The translations under genes and the position numbers were made by a program. From assembly GCA_029573715.1 (NCBI GenBank), contig JAKQDR010000105.1, forward strand, positions 1 through 64,000: DNA of 64,000 nucleotides, read 5' to 3'. The notes below the pieces were generated by a model. That model saw only the letters and a list, made by a program, of their open reading frames with translations. It made no database searches and had not been told where the DNA came from. This document shows, piece by piece, positions 1,226 to 36,742 of this stretch. The DNA comes from a bacterium. Its GTDB lineage: Bacteria; Patescibacteriota; Microgenomatia; UBA1406; GWC2-37-13. How positions within the stretch are numbered: position 1 is the first letter of the stretch; every line of letters starts with the position of its first letter.

Positions 1226-1410
1226 TATATAGCTCACCAAACACCTTTTTCAAAAAGCGTTGAGAGTCCGGTAACACAATACGCTTTCTTAATGTACAGA
1301 GTATAAATCAGAGGACGCTCACTTAAGTGAGTATTCAAGAAGCCATGGGTTTACCCCACCGCTCACGTAAGGACGAACGTCTCTTTGAAAAGGGTGTGGT
1401 GAGCGCAATA
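1226..1410 (+). ncRNA. Structured RNA candidate, copy 1 (unknown class)
   Basis: This non-coding stretch has a paralogue at 36451-36638 with about three-quarters identity over 174 nt. A closing stem joins 1232-1254 to 1383-1404 (gctcacc with ggtgagc, then acacctttttc with gaaaagggtgt). Base changes in copy 2 keep the pairing. Inside are a conserved gtcc/ggac pairing, a hairpin ctcac/gtgag whose loop differs between copies (ttaa here), and a hairpin gacg-aa-cgtc near the 3' end. The plus strand is favoured because ATGATG, part of a -10-like TATGAT (1214-1219), is conserved just upstream of both copies. It does not match tmRNA, SRP RNA or RNase P RNA features. A 6S-like role is possible but unproven. 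Confidence 0.7.
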
Positions 1411-4087: not shown

Positions 4088-4810
4088 ATGATTCGCATAC
4101 TTTCATACAATGTGCGCTATGGCAGAAAACTGAGCCAGATTCTTGCGTGGCTGCAGGAACGATATATGCAGTACGATGTGATTTGTCTTCAAGAATATCC
4201 TCAAGACAAACAAAAAGATATCAGGGGGCATTTTGCTTCACACTATCAGCATGTGTTCTCGCATGGGTTTAGTACCAAGAAAGGAAGTTTCGGACAAGTC
4301 ACTCTGTATGACACCATACGGCTGAAAACGCATGGTTCTCGAGTGTTGACACTGGGCAAAAACGCCATAGAAGACATCGTGCATGGAATAAAAGGAGAGC
4401 GTACCGCTTTGATCACTAAACTGAAAAACGGCGAAGGATCATTGTCACTCATCAATACACATCTTGCATGTCTAGCTGGCAATGGTGCGCGCCGAAAACA
4501 ACTCAAAATGATCCTTGATGAGTTAAAACATGACAAAGCTCACGCTGCAAGTGGGCAGGTGGTTGTTGGTGATTTTAATTACACATCACTGTTACGTCAG
4601 CGTTCGTTATTGAGTTTTATGACTGATCACCATTTCATTAATGCATACAAAAAAAGCACCCACCGACTTTTTTTTGTGAAGCATCAACTCGATTATGCAT
4701 TCTATCGGCAGTGTGCCATACGTAATGTTATGGTCGAACGATTAAAGTACTCAGATCACTATCCTGTTTCATTTGAAGTTCATTTTCCGCATGCTAAAAA
4801 TAACGAATAG
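4088..4810 (+). CDS. Endonuclease/exonuclease/phosphatase family protein
   Basis: 240 residues with the motifs of the EEP (DNase I/ExoIII-like) superfamily in order: LSYNVRYG (substrate Asn), C-L-Q-E-Y (metal-binding Glu), INTHLAC, VVGDFNY (Asp/Asn pair) and YSDHYPVSF (catalytic Asp-His). There is no signal peptide or membrane segment. Members cleave phosphodiester bonds in nucleic acids, lipids or inositol phosphates, so the substrate is not predictable. It differs from the clear exonuclease III at 37772. The 3' end overlaps the smpB start by 20 nt, suggesting co-transcription with smpB. Confidence 0.8.
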   Translation: MIRILSYNVRYGRKLSQILAWLQERYMQYDVICLQEYPQDKQKDIRGHFASHYQHVFSHGFSTKKGSFGQVTLYDTIRLKTHGSRVLTLGKNAIEDIVHGIKGERTALITKLKNGEGSLSLINTHLACLAGNGARRKQLKMILDELKHDKAHAASGQVVVGDFNYTSLLRQRSLLSFMTDHHFINAYKKSTHRLFFVKHQLDYAFYRQCAIRNVMVERLKYSDHYPVSFEVHFPHAKNNE

Positions 4811-5243
4811 AAAATATTTTCATACCTATCAAGAGATTGAGACGATGGAGGCGGGGATAGCACTGCTTGGATCTGAAGTGAAACAAATAAAATCGGGCAA
4901 TGTAAAGCTTGAAGATTCTTTCGTGAAGATTCTTGATGATGGAGTCTATCTGATCAATGCTGAAATTCCAAACTACAAGTTTTCGTTCCCGCAAGGATAT
5001 GATCCGCGCAGATCAAGGCGCCTGCTTTTGCATAAGAAGCAGATACTACGACTGGTGATGAAGATGAGGCGAGGAGGAAACCATACGCTTGCGCCAAAAT
5101 CATGCTACACCAAAGGTCAACTCATAAAGATAGAGGTGGGACTTGTTCGTGGCCGAAAAGATATTGAACGAAAAGTCATACAGAAAAGACGTGAGGTTGC
5201 ACGTAGTCAGCAAATGGAAGCGCGAGAAGCTATGAAAGGATGA
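4791..5243 (+). CDS. smpB: SsrA-binding protein SmpB
   Basis: 150 residues from the ATG at 4791; an upstream in-frame ATG at 4773 would lengthen the overlap with the preceding gene. SmpB hallmarks are the N-terminal N-R-K-Y-F-H-x-Y-x-I, the G-I-x-L-x-G-S-E-V-K-x-I block, N-A-x-I, the R-S-R-R-L-L-L-H-K-K-Q-I segment and the basic G-R-G-K-K-like tail G-L-V-R-G-R-K-D with a long helical C-terminus. It binds tmRNA and brings it to stalled ribosomes in trans-translation. Its RNA partner, ssrA, begins 30 nt downstream, so the protein and RNA partners lie side by side, with the RNA on its own promoter. Confidence 0.96.
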   Translation: MLKITNRKYFHTYQEIETMEAGIALLGSEVKQIKSGNVKLEDSFVKILDDGVYLINAEIPNYKFSFPQGYDPRRSRRLLLHKKQILRLVMKMRRGGNHTLAPKSCYTKGQLIKIEVGLVRGRKDIERKVIQKRREVARSQQMEAREAMKG

Positions 5244-5272: not shown

Positions 5273-5696
5273 GGGGATGACAGGCTTCGACGGAAAGCAC
5301 TTTTACATGCTGGTACAGGCGCATCTATGCGCAACTAGAAAATCTTAATTGCAACTTCATTTGAAGACGCAGTTGCTGATCTCAAGGCCTTTGCTGCAGA
5401 AATTGTGGGCGCTCAATACGCACGCAACTATGCATACGCAGCATAATGCTGGGTACTAAAGACTTGAGCATTAGACGGATATACCAAGTTCCCTCGTCGT
5501 GTAGGTATATCTGAAAACCAAGGCGGGGTGCGACGTCGTAAGGTTTGTTGGATGTAGCGACGCCTAAGATACAAACAACCCTCTCATACAAGGTGTGGTG
5601 ATGTGCCATGATGGGAGGTATCAAACATCATCTTATCCTGTACAAAACGGCATATAAGGCACTTTTCGGACCCGGGTTCAAATCCCGGCATCTCCA
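5273..5696 (+). ncRNA. ssrA: Transfer-messenger RNA (tmRNA)
   Basis: The 5' end GGGGATG pairs with CATCTCC at 5689-5695 to make the acceptor stem. The T-arm CCGGG/CCCGG around TTCAAAT is intact. The 5' half has the conserved GACAGGCTTCGACGG. CCA is not encoded. A tag frame runs 5351-5443 before TAA: starting at GCA (preceded by TAATT, like the TAGTC before the E. coli resume codon) it gives 31 residues ending ARNYAYAA, which is long for a tag. The 3' end is the insertion point of a GIY-YIG element. It works with SmpB, encoded directly upstream, to rescue stalled ribosomes. Confidence 0.96.
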
Positions 5697-5698
5697 CA
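5680..5698 (+). repeat. Left 19-bp direct repeat (tmRNA 3' end)
   Basis: The last 17 nt of tmRNA (3' strand of the T-stem and acceptor) plus 2 nt. It is identical to 6078-6096. This is the arrangement left by site-specific insertion into a tRNA or tmRNA 3' end. Confidence 0.9.
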
Positions 5699-19200: not shown

Positions 19201-22200
19201 ATGGATAGTGTACACATCAAACCGTTTTGGAAACGGAGGACGTTCTTTTTATGGCTTCGCAGAGCCCTGTCGTTTGGGATGATGTGTTTTATCCTGCTTC
19301 AGGGATCTCGATTAATTACCTCACTTGCTGCGCCGGTTCCTTACGTATGGGATTTTACGACTCCTGCAGATTATGTTGTTTCAGATTCAGCATCGGTCGA
19401 GGTGAACTCAAATACTGCTCGGCTCAAGGTTCAAAATTACAGCGTTGATGCAAACACCAAACTACTTCTCCATTTGGATGAATCAACTGGAAACCCTATT
19501 GATTCATCCGGCACCCCTCACTCTGTCACCGCAACTGATATCAGTTATGCGTCTGGTCGACTCAATAACGCCGCTGTATTTGACGGTGTTGGCTCGCAGC
19601 TTACAGTGCCTGATTCGACAGGCATTTCTCTAAGCACCAGCCATACAATTGAAGCATGGGTGAGCTTGGCAAGCGCGTTTTCAGCACACAGCAGCTACAC
19701 TAGACAACCCATTTTTGATAAAGGTTCGCACCAACTCTATTTTGAAAGAGACACAGGGGAGTTGGTATACGAGCTTGCCCGCGCTGATCAAACTACATGG
19801 CAGCATGTGGCAGGTCCAATCACAAGTGACACCCCAGGTTCGGAGGCAGAAAGCACTTCCGGGGTTGGTGGAGGGACGTGGGATTATGATGGAAAATCCG
19901 CGATCTCATCTATGATCCATATTGGAAGCAATATGTATGTGGGCACAGGCGCTGGTTTATCAGATGCAGAAGTGTGGCGATGGAACGGAGTAAGTTGGAC
20001 CATGATAGGGGGCGATGGAATAAGAGGGAGTTGGGTTAATCAAAAATACGAGATAGTTTCAGCTATGGCAAACGATGGGAATATCCTTTATGTAGGTTTG
20101 GGTTCAACGACACTCGGTAACGACGGTGATGCTGAGGTGTGGAGTATGGATACATCTAGCGACAGCAACAATTGGGTGAAGATTGGTGGCGATGGAGTAA
20201 ATGGAAGCTGGAATTATGTTTTGACCACTCAAGGTCCGTTTGAGATTGTCAATACACTGCATTTTGTCGCGGGAGCTTTATATGCGGGGCTTGGCAACAC
20301 CTCTGCGTCAACTTCAAATTCAGACGGTGAAGTGTGGCGCTTTAGCAGTGGCACTTGGACCAAGGTTGGAGGTGATTCTGGACAGGACGGATATGGTTGG
20401 ACCACGGCTGCACGACAAGAAGAGGTGGTCAGCTTAACATCGGACGGGACATATTTATATGCGGGACTTGGGGCAAGTGCTGGAGATGGTGATGTCTGGC
20501 GAGCTACATTAGAATCCCTTGCTGCAACACCAAGTTGGGAAAAGATAGGTGGTGATGGAACTGGATGGGGCGCCTCCACATTTGAAAAGGTGAGTGCTTT
20601 GTATGCGCAGGGAGGATATATTTATGCAGGTCTTGGTACGAGCGCCGCAGGTGATGGAGAAGTATGGCGCTATAACGGCAGTTCTTGGACGAAAATCGGC
20701 GAATGTCCTTCGACCAGTAACTGCACTACGCAAGGATGGCGAAATAATCTATACGAACAAATCTGGTCCATTACCGGTGACGGTACAAATGTATATGTGA
20801 GTATGGGTAACACAGCGAGTGATAATGATGTGTGGCGATTTGATGATGCCGGAACTGAGGCGACAGCTGATGATGTGTGGACAATGATTGCGGGAAGCAC
20901 GGGAGCAACTGATATAGGCAACACGCACCACATTGCGCGCGTTGTGTACCACGACGGTACAGATTTGTACGTGGGACTGCAGCAAACAAGCAATACGTTT
21001 CCTGGTGAAGTATGGAAATGGACAGGAACTCAGTATATATGGACAATAATCGGAGGTAACTTTATCAATGATAGTTGGGGGTTCTACCCCATATCACGAG
21101 TTGAGACCATGTTGAGCACCGGTGATAAGCTGTATGTGGGATTAGGTGCTACAGGCAACGGAAGATATGGTGGGGGCCATGTATATGAATTCGATGGAGT
21201 AGCATGGGACAGAATTGGTGGCATGGGCAAACAAAATAGTTGGAATGGAGTGTTTTCACCTCTTGCTAATTATGAAAGTGTTCCTTCTCTTGCCGAATAT
21301 GAGGGCAAGTTGTATGCAGGGTTGGGCAGCAGTGCGGGTGATGGGGAGGTTTGGGGGTATGGTGTAGTTGAGAATGATCAATGGACAAGGATAGGAGGGG
21401 ATGCCAATACGATGGTTGCTGTTGCGGAGAGTGGTACCAATAATCGCATTATGTCAACGGGGAATGGAACCACCTGGACCTCTCGCACCAATCCAGATGA
21501 CAACGATTGGACAGGCTTAGTCCATGCAAACGATCAGTATGTCGCCGTCGCCTCAAGCGGCACGGGTAATCGCGTGATGACATCACCAGATGGTATTACG
21601 TGGACAATACGTACAAGCGCCGCTGACAATGATTGGCGCTCAGTTACGTATGGAAAAGGTCTATTTGTCGCCGTCGCCTCAAGCGGCACGGGTAATCGCG
21701 TGATGACATCACCAGATGGTATTACGTGGACAATACGTACAAGCGCCGCTGACATATCGTGGAATTCTATAACATATGGGAATGGAGTTTTTGTGGCAGT
21801 TGCCAATGATGGAGTGGTGGAGAGTGTCATGACATCATCCGATGGACTCAGCTGGACAATCCAATCAGCCGCGAATAGTAATGCTTGGGAAGCAGTATCG
21901 TTTGGAAACAATACGTTTGTCGCGGTAGCTTCAACAGGTACCAATAATAGAGCCATGACCTCTCCGGATGGTGCTACTTGGACTATTCGGACAACTCCAA
22001 GTAGTAATACCAATACTTGGACCGCCGTAGCATTTCATCAAAGTTACAACAGCAATAATGGTTTATTTGTCGCGGTGGCCGACACTGGCACGACTTCACG
22101 TGTCATGAGTTCGACTAATAATGGTGCCACGTGGACATTGCGCGCGACACCATTTAGTAATGCTTGGGCTGCCGTTGCAACGCCGACCGGTTGGTCGAGT

Positions 22201-25200
22201 GGGGCTGGCATAGAGGTTATTGCATCAATGTCAACATATACTTGTCCCAACGCAACAACATCCTGTTTGTATGTGGGCACGGGAATTTCTGCCAATGATG
22301 GGAAGGTCTTTGTGTATGATCAAAGTTCATGGCAGCAGATTGCTGGTAATGGCACCATTGGTAGTTGGGAAGGGTTAGGCATCGAATCAGTGAATGCGCT
22401 CACTGTTTACAACAGTAAACTGTATGCTGCTTTAGGCAACACGGCTCCTTCTGCGTCAAATGGCGATGCCGAGATTTGGGAATACACAGGTAATGGTACT
22501 GCCTGGAACAAGGTCGCCGGTGACGGCATAAATGATAGCTGGAATTATTCTGGGGCCATAGCTTATGGCCCCTATGAAAGCATCAATGCCACAGCCGTGT
22601 ACGATGGATACTTTTATGTGGGCCTTGGCAACAGTGCTGACGGATCTTCATTTGCAGACTCTGAAGTATGGAGGTGGGACGGTTTGGCAAGTTGGGAAAA
22701 GGTGGGTGGGGATGGATTAAATGGTAGCTGGGATGACAGTCAAAACTTTGAAGCAGTCCGATCAATGACGGTATACAACGGAGAATTATATGTTGGTCTG
22801 GGAGATACCGCTGCCGTAGGACTTGTAGATGGTGAGGTGTGGAAATGGAACGGAGTCACATGGACACTTATTGGAGGCGAAGACTCTGTAAATAGTAGTT
22901 GGTCTGATTCAGTGACTCCCCGGAAAGAACAGGTTTATAGCCTTGCGACATTTAATGGAAGACTGTACGCAGGTTTAGGGAATAGTGTGGGGGACGCTGC
23001 GATTTGGGCTTATGGTCGCAATCAGATAGTGCGGACTACCTCTGATGTATCGCATACCACTGATTGGATGCATGTAGCGGCAGTATATGATCAATCTCTC
23101 GGTTCTGACCAATTAAAACTGTACATTAACGGAGTCGAGAAGGGTGTCACGAGCGCTTCTGTGAATACGGTCGATAACTCGCTGCCGCTTCTTGTTGGGT
23201 CAGAATATGGTACTCGCTATCAGGGTGATCGACATGGTTATTATACGGGAAGGCTGGACGAAATTCGCTTTTCAAACAATGTTCGAACTACATTTAATCT
23301 AACTCCTTATTCAAACCAACCCCATGCTGTGGCACCGAATGTGCCACAGTTCACATCGGGTGTTAAAGAGTGGGCGAGTTTTGATACAAGTGGGGCCGTT
23401 GAGGGTCAGGGGATACGATACCGACTTTCAGTAGATGGAGGTAACACATGGAAATACTGGAATACGGGTTCATCAGCGTGGGCAACATCAACTATCAATT
23501 TCGCGACCGACGATGAGGCGACTATTCTTTCTCGTGTAAATGACAAAGCTACCATTGACGCAAATATTGCATCGCTTGTTGCCGGTTCGGGAGGAATAAG
23601 CTGGCAGGCGATATTAAATGGTGACGGTGATACACAAGTTACGTTAAATTCAGTCACCATAACTGCAGAACCAGACACAGATTCTCCTTCAAATCCAACT
23701 GTTATAAATGCGCTTTCCGCCTCAAGCGGAGGTATCCCCATTGATTCAGACACATGGTATGCTCATACCAATCCTCACTTTACCTGGTCAGGGGCTGATG
23801 ATGGGGATGGATCAGGGGTTGCCGGATATTTTGTGGTGTTTGAGCAGGCGACCAAAATCGCCATTACGCCAACTCCTCCATCCACAGAAGCATTTTCGTA
23901 TGTATGTGATGATGACCCTGAGCTGCACGGCATGCCTCAAGCGTCACCGACCTACACTGCGTCTGGACTGACTTCAGGTGAAGTGTATTGTCTTCGAATT
24001 AAAACATACGATTATGCAGGCAATAAATCGGGAGTCCTCAGCGCATTTATTTATAAATTTGATAACGTAAACGGTGTGGCGCCCACACTCAATCCTCCCG
24101 CGCCTGCAGGATACGCTCCAGAAGACAATTACACGTTTAGTTGGCTTCCCATTGCTCTTTCAGCTAATGGCGCACCCATCGTGAAGTTGCAGTATAAGAC
24201 AGGTGCGACTGTGGGTGGTCGAGGCGACGCGTATGCCGACTGGCAAGACCTTGCGCCGACGCTCACGAGTGTTTATTTAACAGATGCATCATATCAAGAC
24301 GAAGAAAACATATTTTATTTACGCACAGTCGACGCAGCCGGCAATGCGAGTATCACTGCTTCACGCAGTTTCTATTATGCTGGCGACGGCGCATCACCCC
24401 CACAGGCACTCACGGTGAACAACACCACAAGCACAACATGTTCATTCACATTTTCATGGCAGGCGCCGGAAACTTATCTGGGTAGTAACGCGAGTCAGCT
24501 TACCTACTGTTACACGGTGAACATTCAGCCAAATGCGAACTTATGTAATGGTCGTTTTACCGCAAACGGCATTACTTCTGCCTCAAACTATTGTGACCAG
24601 AACATGAGAAATGGCATCAATACATTCTATGTAGTTGCGAAAAATCCTGAGTCACAGGGGGGCACAGTCAATTATGGAGCATATTCATCTACATCGTTTA
24701 CGCTCAACACTTCCTCACCGGGGGTGCCTGCGAATGTTGAAGTGGGTGACATATCAGTAAAAAGCCTTGAACAGTGGAAGCTCACCGTTTCATGGCTTAA
24801 GCCAACGCTTAATGGTGATGCTGTAGACAGCTATGAAGTTTGGAGATCGGAGGATGGGATTACGTTCGAGAAAATTGGAGAAACGGGTAAGCGAGGCACT
24901 GCTTATGTTGACGCAGATCTAGAACAAAAAACATATTACTATCAAGTAAACGCTTGTGATGTAGTGAAAAACTGTGGTCCTTATTCAGAAACAGTGGAGA
25001 AATATCCAACCGGCAAGTTTACAGAACCTGCCAATTTGGTGTCAGGCCCGGCGTCAAGTGATATTACCACCAAGAAAGCAACCATCACGTGGGGCACAGA
25101 CAGGGTCTCTGACTCTAAGGTGCAGTTTGGTACCGAAGCGGGTAAATATTTCACCGAAGAACCCTCAAACTCAACCCAGGTCACTGATCATGAAATCATG

Positions 25201-26271
25201 CTTAACAATCTCTCCCCCGGGACGACATACTATTACAAAGCAAAATGGACAGACGAAGATGGAAACACGGGGATCTCGCCTGAAAAATCTTTCACCACGG
25301 AGCCGGCACCTACCATTAAGGATGTGTTAGCAACAAAAGTAGGTATTGACAATGCGTTTATCACATTTACGGTGACTGGCGGAAGCAGGGTTAAACTGTA
25401 TTATGGTGATACTGCCTCGTTTGGAAGCATCAAAACAATATATGTAGGAGCTTCTGAGACGACAGAGTCGGTTGAGCTTGCTGAACTTCAAGACGACACA
25501 AAATATTATTACAAAGTAAACGGCGTTGACGCCGATGGAGTTGAGTATGACGGAACGACACTGAGTTTTTCCACGGTGCCACGACCGAAGGTAAGCGGCG
25601 TACGCTTGCAACAGATAGTTGGAACTGCTCAGCCTGCCGTGCTTGTCTCATGGGAATCAAATACCAGCATCTCTTCTATTGTGACATACTATCCCACGCG
25701 CAATCCATCTGATGTGCGTGATGAAATAAGCGTAGAGCTTACTCCAGGACTTCATCAAATGGTTCTTCGAGGTTTACTTCCCGATACTGAGTATGCACTT
25801 ATGGTGAGTGGCCGAGATAGAACAGGAAATGAAGCGCGTTCTGAAAGACAGACTTTCACGACAGCGACAGACACACGCCCTCCCCGTGTTACTAATCTCA
25901 AGATAGAATCAAGCACCACGAAAGTGAGTGCTGGCTCAAATGATAAGCTCGCACAACTGGTGGTTTCTTGGACAACAGATGAACCGGCAACAAGCCAGGT
26001 GGAATATGGCGAGGGCACCGGTGCAACTTACCCTCAAAAAAGTCAAGAAGATACTCAACTCAAGCTTAATCACTTAGTGATTATCTCAAATCTTCCAACT
26101 TCTCGCGTGTATCATTTACGCGCGCTCTCGACAGATTTTGCAGGTAATGTCGGACCATCTCAAGACACGGTGACCATTACACCAAAGGGCAGTGATGATG
26201 CGCTGGATTTGGTTATGCGGAATTTGGTCGAATCGTTTGGATTTTTACGAGAGGTTTTGCCATCAAGATAA
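19201..26271 (+). CDS. Giant secreted/surface protein: split LamG, propeller-type repeats, FN3 domains
   Basis: 2356 residues. Signal region: basic start then a hydrophobic stretch (about 22-45) ending near SLAA. Residues about 87-205 look like the first half of a LamG/concanavalin domain (LLLHLDES, AAVFDGVGSQLTV, HTIEAWVSL). About 14 repeats of the form YxGLGxSxxDGEVWxxxG follow in two blocks (9 and 5), around six Asp-box/BNR-like units (SPDGITW). At about 1285-1375 comes what looks like the second half of the LamG fold (WMHVAAVYDQS, LKLYINGVEKG, GRLDEIRFSN). The rest to 2300 is beta-rich, with fibronectin type III-like modules, the last four resembling the FN3-like N-domain of purple acid phosphatases. 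No sorting motif or membrane anchor is seen at the C-terminus. It is probably an adhesin or glycan-binding surface protein. A MacB-type ABC pair follows directly. Confidence 0.8.
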   Translation: MDSVHIKPFWKRRTFFLWLRRALSFGMMCFILLQGSRLITSLAAPVPYVWDFTTPADYVVSDSASVEVNSNTARLKVQNYSVDANTKLLLHLDESTGNPIDSSGTPHSVTATDISYASGRLNNAAVFDGVGSQLTVPDSTGISLSTSHTIEAWVSLASAFSAHSSYTRQPIFDKGSHQLYFERDTGELVYELARADQTTWQHVAGPITSDTPGSEAESTSGVGGGTWDYDGKSAISSMIHIGSNMYVGTGAGLSDAEVWRWNGVSWTMIGGDGIRGSWVNQKYEIVSAMANDGNILYVGLGSTTLGNDGDAEVWSMDTSSDSNNWVKIGGDGVNGSWNYVLTTQGPFEIVNTLHFVAGALYAGLGNTSASTSNSDGEVWRFSSGTWTKVGGDSGQDGYGWTTAARQEEVVSLTSDGTYLYAGLGASAGDGDVWRATLESLAATPSWEKIGGDGTGWGASTFEKVSALYAQGGYIYAGLGTSAAGDGEVWRYNGSSWTKIGECPSTSNCTTQGWRNNLYEQIWSITGDGTNVYVSMGNTASDNDVWRFDDAGTEATADDVWTMIAGSTGATDIGNTHHIARVVYHDGTDLYVGLQQTSNTFPGEVWKWTGTQYIWTIIGGNFINDSWGFYPISRVETMLSTGDKLYVGLGATGNGRYGGGHVYEFDGVAWDRIGGMGKQNSWNGVFSPLANYESVPSLAEYEGKLYAGLGSSAGDGEVWGYGVVENDQWTRIGGDANTMVAVAESGTNNRIMSTGNGTTWTSRTNPDDNDWTGLVHANDQYVAVASSGTGNRVMTSPDGITWTIRTSAADNDWRSVTYGKGLFVAVASSGTGNRVMTSPDGITWTIRTSAADISWNSITYGNGVFVAVANDGVVESVMTSSDGLSWTIQSAANSNAWEAVSFGNNTFVAVASTGTNNRAMTSPDGATWTIRTTPSSNTNTWTAVAFHQSYNSNNGLFVAVADTGTTSRVMSSTNNGATWTLRATPFSNAWAAVATPTGWSSGAGIEVIASMSTYTCPNATTSCLYVGTGISANDGKVFVYDQSSWQQIAGNGTIGSWEGLGIESVNALTVYNSKLYAALGNTAPSASNGDAEIWEYTGNGTAWNKVAGDGINDSWNYSGAIAYGPYESINATAVYDGYFYVGLGNSADGSSFADSEVWRWDGLASWEKVGGDGLNGSWDDSQNFEAVRSMTVYNGELYVGLGDTAAVGLVDGEVWKWNGVTWTLIGGEDSVNSSWSDSVTPRKEQVYSLATFNGRLYAGLGNSVGDAAIWAYGRNQIVRTTSDVSHTTDWMHVAAVYDQSLGSDQLKLYINGVEKGVTSASVNTVDNSLPLLVGSEYGTRYQGDRHGYYTGRLDEIRFSNNVRTTFNLTPYSNQPHAVAPNVPQFTSGVKEWASFDTSGAVEGQGIRYRLSVDGGNTWKYWNTGSSAWATSTINFATDDEATILSRVNDKATIDANIASLVAGSGGISWQAILNGDGDTQVTLNSVTITAEPDTDSPSNPTVINALSASSGGIPIDSDTWYAHTNPHFTWSGADDGDGSGVAGYFVVFEQATKIAITPTPPSTEAFSYVCDDDPELHGMPQASPTYTASGLTSGEVYCLRIKTYDYAGNKSGVLSAFIYKFDNVNGVAPTLNPPAPAGYAPEDNYTFSWLPIALSANGAPIVKLQYKTGATVGGRGDAYADWQDLAPTLTSVYLTDASYQDEENIFYLRTVDAAGNASITASRSFYYAGDGASPPQALTVNNTTSTTCSFTFSWQAPETYLGSNASQLTYCYTVNIQPNANLCNGRFTANGITSASNYCDQNMRNGINTFYVVAKNPESQGGTVNYGAYSSTSFTLNTSSPGVPANVEVGDISVKSLEQWKLTVSWLKPTLNGDAVDSYEVWRSEDGITFEKIGETGKRGTAYVDADLEQKTYYYQVNACDVVKNCGPYSETVEKYPTGKFTEPANLVSGPASSDITTKKATITWGTDRVSDSKVQFGTEAGKYFTEEPSNSTQVTDHEIMLNNLSPGTTYYYKAKWTDEDGNTGISPEKSFTTEPAPTIKDVLATKVGIDNAFITFTVTGGSRVKLYYGDTASFGSIKTIYVGASETTESVELAELQDDTKYYYKVNGVDADGVEYDGTTLSFSTVPRPKVSGVRLQQIVGTAQPAVLVSWESNTSISSIVTYYPTRNPSDVRDEISVELTPGLHQMVLRGLLPDTEYALMVSGRDRTGNEARSERQTFTTATDTRPPRVTNLKIESSTTKVSAGSNDKLAQLVVSWTTDEPATSQVEYGEGTGATYPQKSQEDTQLKLNHLVIISNLPTSRVYHLRALSTDFAGNVGPSQDTVTITPKGSDDALDLVMRNLVESFGFLREVLPSR
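21540..21754 (+). repeat. Pair of identical 89-bp repeats inside the giant gene
   Basis: 21540-21628 and 21666-21754 are identical; the period of 126 bp equals 42 codons, one BNR-like unit. Neighbouring units are clearly diverged, so this is a recent in-frame duplication or a gene-conversion event. Confidence 0.93.
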
Positions 26272-36393: not shown

Positions 36394-36450
36394 ACTCATT
36401 TTTACCTTCCCTATACATGCCCGAAATAATGCAATAATCTCATGATGTCG

Positions 36451-36638
36451 TATATAGCTCACCAAACATCCGTTTCAAAAAGCGTTGAGCGTCCGCCCAA
36501 ACAAAGTACTCTCTTCATGTACATAGTATGAATCAGAGGACGCTCACCGAGTGAGTATCCAAGAAGCCATAGATTTATCCGCATGACTCAAGTATAGACG
36601 AACGTCTTTTATGAAACGGGTGTGGTGAGCTGTGTATG
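36451..36638 (+). ncRNA. Structured RNA candidate, copy 2 (unknown class)
   Basis: Paralogue of 1226-1410. The closing stem joins 36457-36476 with 36611-36630. Compared with copy 1 it has acatccgtttca against tgaaacgggtgt, so the C-G pair next to the GTTTC run replaces a T-A type pair of copy 1 and pairing is kept. It also has tgagcgtcc (36485-36493) fully complementary to ggacgctca (36537-36545), a ctcac-cga-gtgag hairpin and agacg-aa-cgtct. The core is 174 nt against 173 nt in copy 1. ATGATG lies just upstream as in copy 1. It sits between a hydrolase and a protease gene, a different context from copy 1, which favours a free-standing RNA over a cis-element. Confidence 0.7.
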
Positions 36639-36641
36639 TAC

Positions 36642-36665
36642 GTGCATTGAGCGGGGAGCATGCAC
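36642..36665 (+). terminator. Weak hairpin downstream of RNA copy 2
   Basis: A 6-bp stem GTGCAT/ATGCAC with a 12-nt loop, followed by a broken T-rich stretch. It could end the RNA transcript, but there is no clean T-run. Confidence 0.3.
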
Positions 36666-36742
36666 ACATTGATTTTCGCGAGAGTCTGGAAAGAATAAGT
36701 CTATCTACCACTCCATAGGGTTTTATGTTACGATGTGATGGT

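Follow-up and report, generated by a model that had tools for sequence, protein, structure and literature searches.

A small, probably mobile repeat with a three-way-junction RNA fold in genomes of the class Microgenomatia

Rickettsia palindromic elements (RPE) are short palindromic mobile repeats that are found between genes and in frame within protein genes. The element described here also lies between genes and in frame within them (in the TGT gene of genome G358 and in an AMP-ligase ORF of G218), and in this it resembles the RPE, although no RPE sequence was compared. It differs in that its copies are mostly intergenic, form a three-way junction with covarying junction pairs and reside in CPR hosts. 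Short intergenic repeats that fold are a known kind of element, and ERIC, BOX, bcr1 and Correia repeats are imperfect intergenic palindromes of ~100-300 bp that occur in multiple copies and both orientations and have folding transcripts (PMC10969869). The present element shares their size, intergenic site, multiple copies and both orientations. However, its arms covary instead of being fixed, its unpaired and tandem G-A motifs are conserved, and its core is recognisable with covariance models across at least seven families. HEARO and omega RNAs (IS200/605-type) are comparable as multi-copy structured RNAs spread with a mobile element, but our element has no Rfam match and its copy-richest host, G372, no detectable Y1 transposase (TnpB and IscB were outside the search). 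Retron ncRNAs are similar in that long inverted arms close internal hairpins, whereas the copies described here are many and have no adjacent reverse transcriptase, and G372 and G003 contain no detectable RVT_1 domain.

The window, that is the whole analysed stretch of 64,000 nucleotides, belongs to genome G000, a fragmented bin (1.79 Mb, 313 contigs, 4.76% contamination). An earlier note on this DNA had reported a recurrent core with a closing stem. Both are confirmed: copy 1 (1226-1404) and copy 2 (36451-36630), each on the plus strand, match pairwise with 82% identity over 181 aligned bp (E 7e-44), and their closing stems read ACACCTTTTTCA/TGAAAAGGGTGT and ACATCCGTTTCA/TGAAACGGGTGT, respectively. 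The RNA core of ~175 bases was located at 1232-1404 (covariance model R3, 172.9 bits, E 1.8e-40; alignments A3 and A8) and 36457-36630 (R3, 192.0 bits, E 2.9e-45), and folding compared to dinucleotide shuffles gave z = -4.9 for copy 1 and z = -7.9 for a sister copy. The span given in the note fits this core only, as the G000 unit extends beyond it to ~300 bp and is bounded by an outer inverted repeat, CTTATTCTCCC...GGGAGAATAAG. An alignment of extended G000 copies and a terminal pattern search place the unit of copy 1 at ~1173-1450, where ~22 bp of the right flank are missing compared to the other copies. The extended-copy alignment places that of copy 2 at 36405-36700, with the right terminal repeat at 36674-36699 in the pattern search. 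A pattern made from one end retrieved the opposite end of several G000 copies and otherwise few or chance matches. The inventory of G000 comprises seven full copies, two partial 5' copies and two partial 3' copies. With a length of ~170-300 bp, inverted ends, no coding sequence and many copies, the element satisfies the general criterion of a MITE (short, non-coding, multi-copy, terminal inverted repeats). Copy 1 is flanked by tandem T4SS-pilin-like genes (PF18895; 1-196, 263-1168 and 1412-1918), the second of which scores under the Pfam cut-off.

The RNA folds as a three-way junction that is closed by a long stem. In copy 1, the closing helix P1 pairs 1232-1258 with 1379-1404, as supported by covariation; a ten-sequence alignment has 13 counted P1 pairs with double changes, and in G372 these affect 9 of 13. 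Hairpin P2 (1261-1269 with 1313-1321) rests on the count of double changes, which affect six of its eight pairs across genera. Its base is nearly invariant (UGAA/UUCA; UGAG/CUCA in G000), and in G288 the entire helix is swapped (TGAAGATTTACC/GGTAAATCTTCA) with pairing intact. The third helix, P3, joins GYGAR on the 3' side of P2 (GTGAG, 1327-1331) to YGARC on the 5' side of P1 (CGAAC, 1374-1378) around a central tandem G-A; a second tandem GA/GA lies within P1 in 15 of the 19 G372 copies. The ctcac/gtgag hairpin of the note is not part of the conserved fold, since across the family as a whole CTC pairs with the 5' GAG in P2, and GTGAG with CGAAC in P3. P3 was found by reading the aligned sequences, and as its pair is present in none of the covariance models, it provides an independent check. 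Of 40 sequences, 24 have U-A at the Y/R pair, 15 have C-G and a single one has C-A, so that 39/40 covary (Fisher p 4e-10). On a tree inferred with the P3 positions masked, Y and R changed state 8 and 7 times. Just three independent pairs of changes fall on well-supported branches, none being contradictory, and a tree-aware sign test is underpowered.

Compensating base changes reveal that evolution kept the three-armed shape. Ten aligned sequences contained 26 double-change pairs compared to 8.6 in shuffles, and 92% of the cells were paired compared to 35-52% after sliding. Aligned by sequence only, 19 copies of G372 gave 11 double-change pairs versus 5.1 in shuffles and 30 cells versus 7.4, with 0/500 shuffles reaching as high. 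Models R1-R3 were grown stepwise from their own matches and the scores of members are therefore not independent; the independent checks are the P3 pair and the sequence-only alignment of G372. Minus-strand model matches on the same copies, which arise because P1 is palindromic, were excluded. The terminal arms of G372 vary among copies and covary as well (GCAGA/TCTGC versus ATTGA/TCAAT). Neighbouring copies differ at 16% of stem and 30% of loop positions, and pairing is kept in 58% of the stem differences versus 33% (p 9e-6), while P1 and P2 contain 35 G-U versus 15 A-C cells; the neighbour counts and the G-U/A-C counts come from a model-fitted alignment and lean towards pairing. The G-U excess, the tandem GA/GA in P1, the conserved junction motifs and the covarying arms suggest that folded RNA, not DNA, is under selection. 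The note had inferred a structured RNA under selection from two copies. For the family this holds, with covariation above shuffles and homologues outside the genome, but two copies were not enough to show it, and even the seven G000 copies alone have covariation near the shuffled level. Within G000, loops are less conserved than stems and junctions, and pairing is kept in 5/14 neighbour differences. Since stem changes in this genome look near neutral, some of its copies may be ageing or dying.

Homologues were reached by covariance models only, a search that the note had proposed and that found them outside G000 in the same class. A first model of the seven G000 cores retrieved a single copy from a different genus within the family, Candidatus Roizmanbacteria RIFCSPLOWO2_01_FULL_41_22 (G003, E 3.4e-12). 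Inclusion of this copy led to a second one in G003 and to one in G288, a member of another family. The following model (R3) matched 12 of 374 genomes of the class, from at least seven families (f1, f4, f8, f9, f18, f25 and f31); the weakest single matches, in G095, G229 and G230 (E 1e-4 to 8e-4), are regarded as tentative members. A phylum sample of 380 genomes yielded two matches only, both inside the same class. Copy numbers range from 1 to ~20 per host genome, with ~20 in the distantly related G372, and the covariance model detected none in G001, which belongs to the same genus as G000 and is merely 69% complete. Blastn over 95 relatives gave nothing, and phage and plasmid collections yielded no copies. 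A hairpin pattern that demanded the C of CTCAC returned 0 outside homologues. Its relaxed version returned only the Roizmanbacteria copy and cyanobacterial and Methylobacterium matches, the latter unconfirmed by the model, and a match on a viral contig (L146) was due to chance. No Rfam 15 family, including tmRNA, SRP, RNase P, 6S, raiA and HEARO, matched the element at E <= 10 in G000, G003, G288, G372 and others, in agreement with the unrecognised class proposed in the note. A class-wide covarying three-way-junction repeat is absent from Rfam 15 and not described in searchable papers, a scope that leaves out subscription journals and preprints.

On the tree, copies group by genome (support 100/100 for G372, 100/100 for G023 and 92/91 for G000), and on this basis amplification was mostly recent relative to the genus splits, or the copies have been homogenised. 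Among 40 copies, 12 lie in sense and 12 in antisense between codirectional genes and 9 between convergent genes. Neighbouring genes are unrelated and share no downstream gene class, and with equal orientations a riboswitch-like placement, in a constant sense position upstream of related genes, was not seen. Copies lie close to stop codons (often 3-37 bp), occupy the intergenic gap and leave promoters unobstructed. The arms of the G288 copy reach into both neighbours, covering one gene's stop codon and the start region of the gene that follows. Flanks are AT-rich, with no consistent target-site duplication observed.

Two of the 40 copies are intragenic and in frame. One is intact and antisense at L136 2781-2942 in G358, inside the minus-strand gene for queuine tRNA-ribosyltransferase (TGT; L136:1860-3287). 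The enzyme carries 65 extra residues, with residues 1-108 and 174 onwards aligning adjacently on solved TGTs, and the insert adjoins the catalytic SGGFQ motif. The other lies in a 931-aa AMP-ligase-like ORF (L138 6086-6254, G218). The galU-rpsB gap measures ~75 bp in G001 and ~195 bp, with a 3' relic, in G000; the element-free state could also be a loss. The DUF4012-recO gap contains a copy in both G000 (L013) and G023 (L131). These copies do not group together on the tree, and their opposite orientations suggest separate insertions, which makes the gap a possible insertion hot spot. The copies at loci L113, L137 and L138, each from a different genome, are directly adjacent to large proteins that are homologous to one another (30-40% identity), a recurrence that may be due to chance. 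On C59 of G000 (~4620-4735, minus strand, L015), nothing but the left end and the first arm of P1 persists, immediately ahead of a Fur-like gene, either as a relic or as a borrowed promoter region.

What we observe is thus a folded element that is dispersed, amplified within genomes, inserted without orientation bias between and occasionally within genes, and missing from one congener site. We consider a small mobile repeat, comparable to a bacterial SINE or MITE and with a conserved three-way-junction RNA as its transcript, to be the best account, with a probability of roughly 55% and without transcription data. The paralogous RNA pair proposed in the note is accordingly real as two copies, but behaves as a dispersed mobile repeat and not as an ordinary pair of ncRNA genes. 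The plus-strand RNA, with its long closing helix P1, hairpin P2 and an arm P3 that opens with GYGAR/YGARC around the tandem G-A, would be recognised in trans by a protein. This is inferred, and the partner is unidentified. Such recognition might let copies spread or persist, by a chemistry of movement that is likewise unidentified. RVT_1 was not detected in G372 (94% complete) or G003, and the sole RVT_1 of G000 is on a contig without any copy (C168). Y1 transposase was not detected in G372 or G003 and occurs in some element-free genomes. A mobiliser of either type is unsupported, as copy-rich G372 has neither detectable, and no autonomous partner was found, including with the G000 terminal pattern. 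With neither enzyme detected in G372, the mobiliser would be an enzyme of another kind, absent from the assembled sequence, or by now extinct. It may tentatively be speculated, against the odds as we see them, that CPR bacteria host a novel class of mobile RNA element, represented by this repeat, whose mobilising machinery recognises the folded RNA itself, as a SINE-like RNA or RNP, without detectable RVT_1 or Y1. If RNA rather than DNA ends were recognised, the element would stand out as unusual among bacterial mobile elements. CPR bacteria have small genomes with densely packed genes and are mostly uncultured, and no described RNA family was matched here; an RNA at about twenty copies that has preserved its shape across family-level distances and can sit in frame in a conserved enzyme gene offers a handle on how these genomes gain mobile DNA.

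The strongest competitor, which we nevertheless regard as improbable, is a family of trans-acting ncRNA genes that is useful to the host, much duplicated and homogenised by gene conversion. Stems and junctions conserved above loops, neighbours that keep their pairing and a DUF4012-recO gap occupied in G000 and G023 alike would all fit such genes. On the other hand, only 12/374 genomes of the class carry the element and congener G001 does not, copy number varies from 1 to ~20, partial copies remain, the recO copies are oppositely oriented and separate on the tree, and two copies sit within genes. Still less probable is a cis-acting mRNA element between genes that serves RNase III-type processing, stability or termination. 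The nearby stop codons and filled gaps would suit it, and Correia and ERIC transcripts are cleaved by RNases (PMC10969869), but the balance of 12 sense, 12 antisense and 9 convergent copies speaks against it, as does the lack of a common downstream gene class, and no U-run terminator was found at copy 1.

A pure MITE, in which a transposase reads the terminal inverted repeats of the DNA and the RNA fold is a by-product, was the initial reading and was lowered by the covariation in G003 and G288. The outer inverted repeat of G000, with a single terminal pattern recovering both ends, and the short, non-coding, intergenic nature of the element agree with it. Yet the terminal arms of G372 differ and covary, unlike a fixed recognition site, the internal helices covary across families and the terminal pattern finds no autonomous element in G000, so that we give this explanation little weight. 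Chance similarity or an assembly artefact, for which the fragmented and partly contaminated bin might be cited, is contradicted by genomes and alignments that are independent of one another and by a covarying pair outside the models; covariation across genomes refutes it, and its likelihood is negligible.

Elsewhere in the window, a tmRNA gene (5273-5697) lies directly 3' of smpB (4773-5243). The tag that ARAGORN reports, ENQGGVRRRKVCWM, seems to be miscalled. A frame located earlier, at ~5352-5447, gives ATSFEDAVADLKAFAAEIVGAQYARNYAYAA, which is unusually long with a typical end. An ORF of 2356 aa spans 19201-26271.
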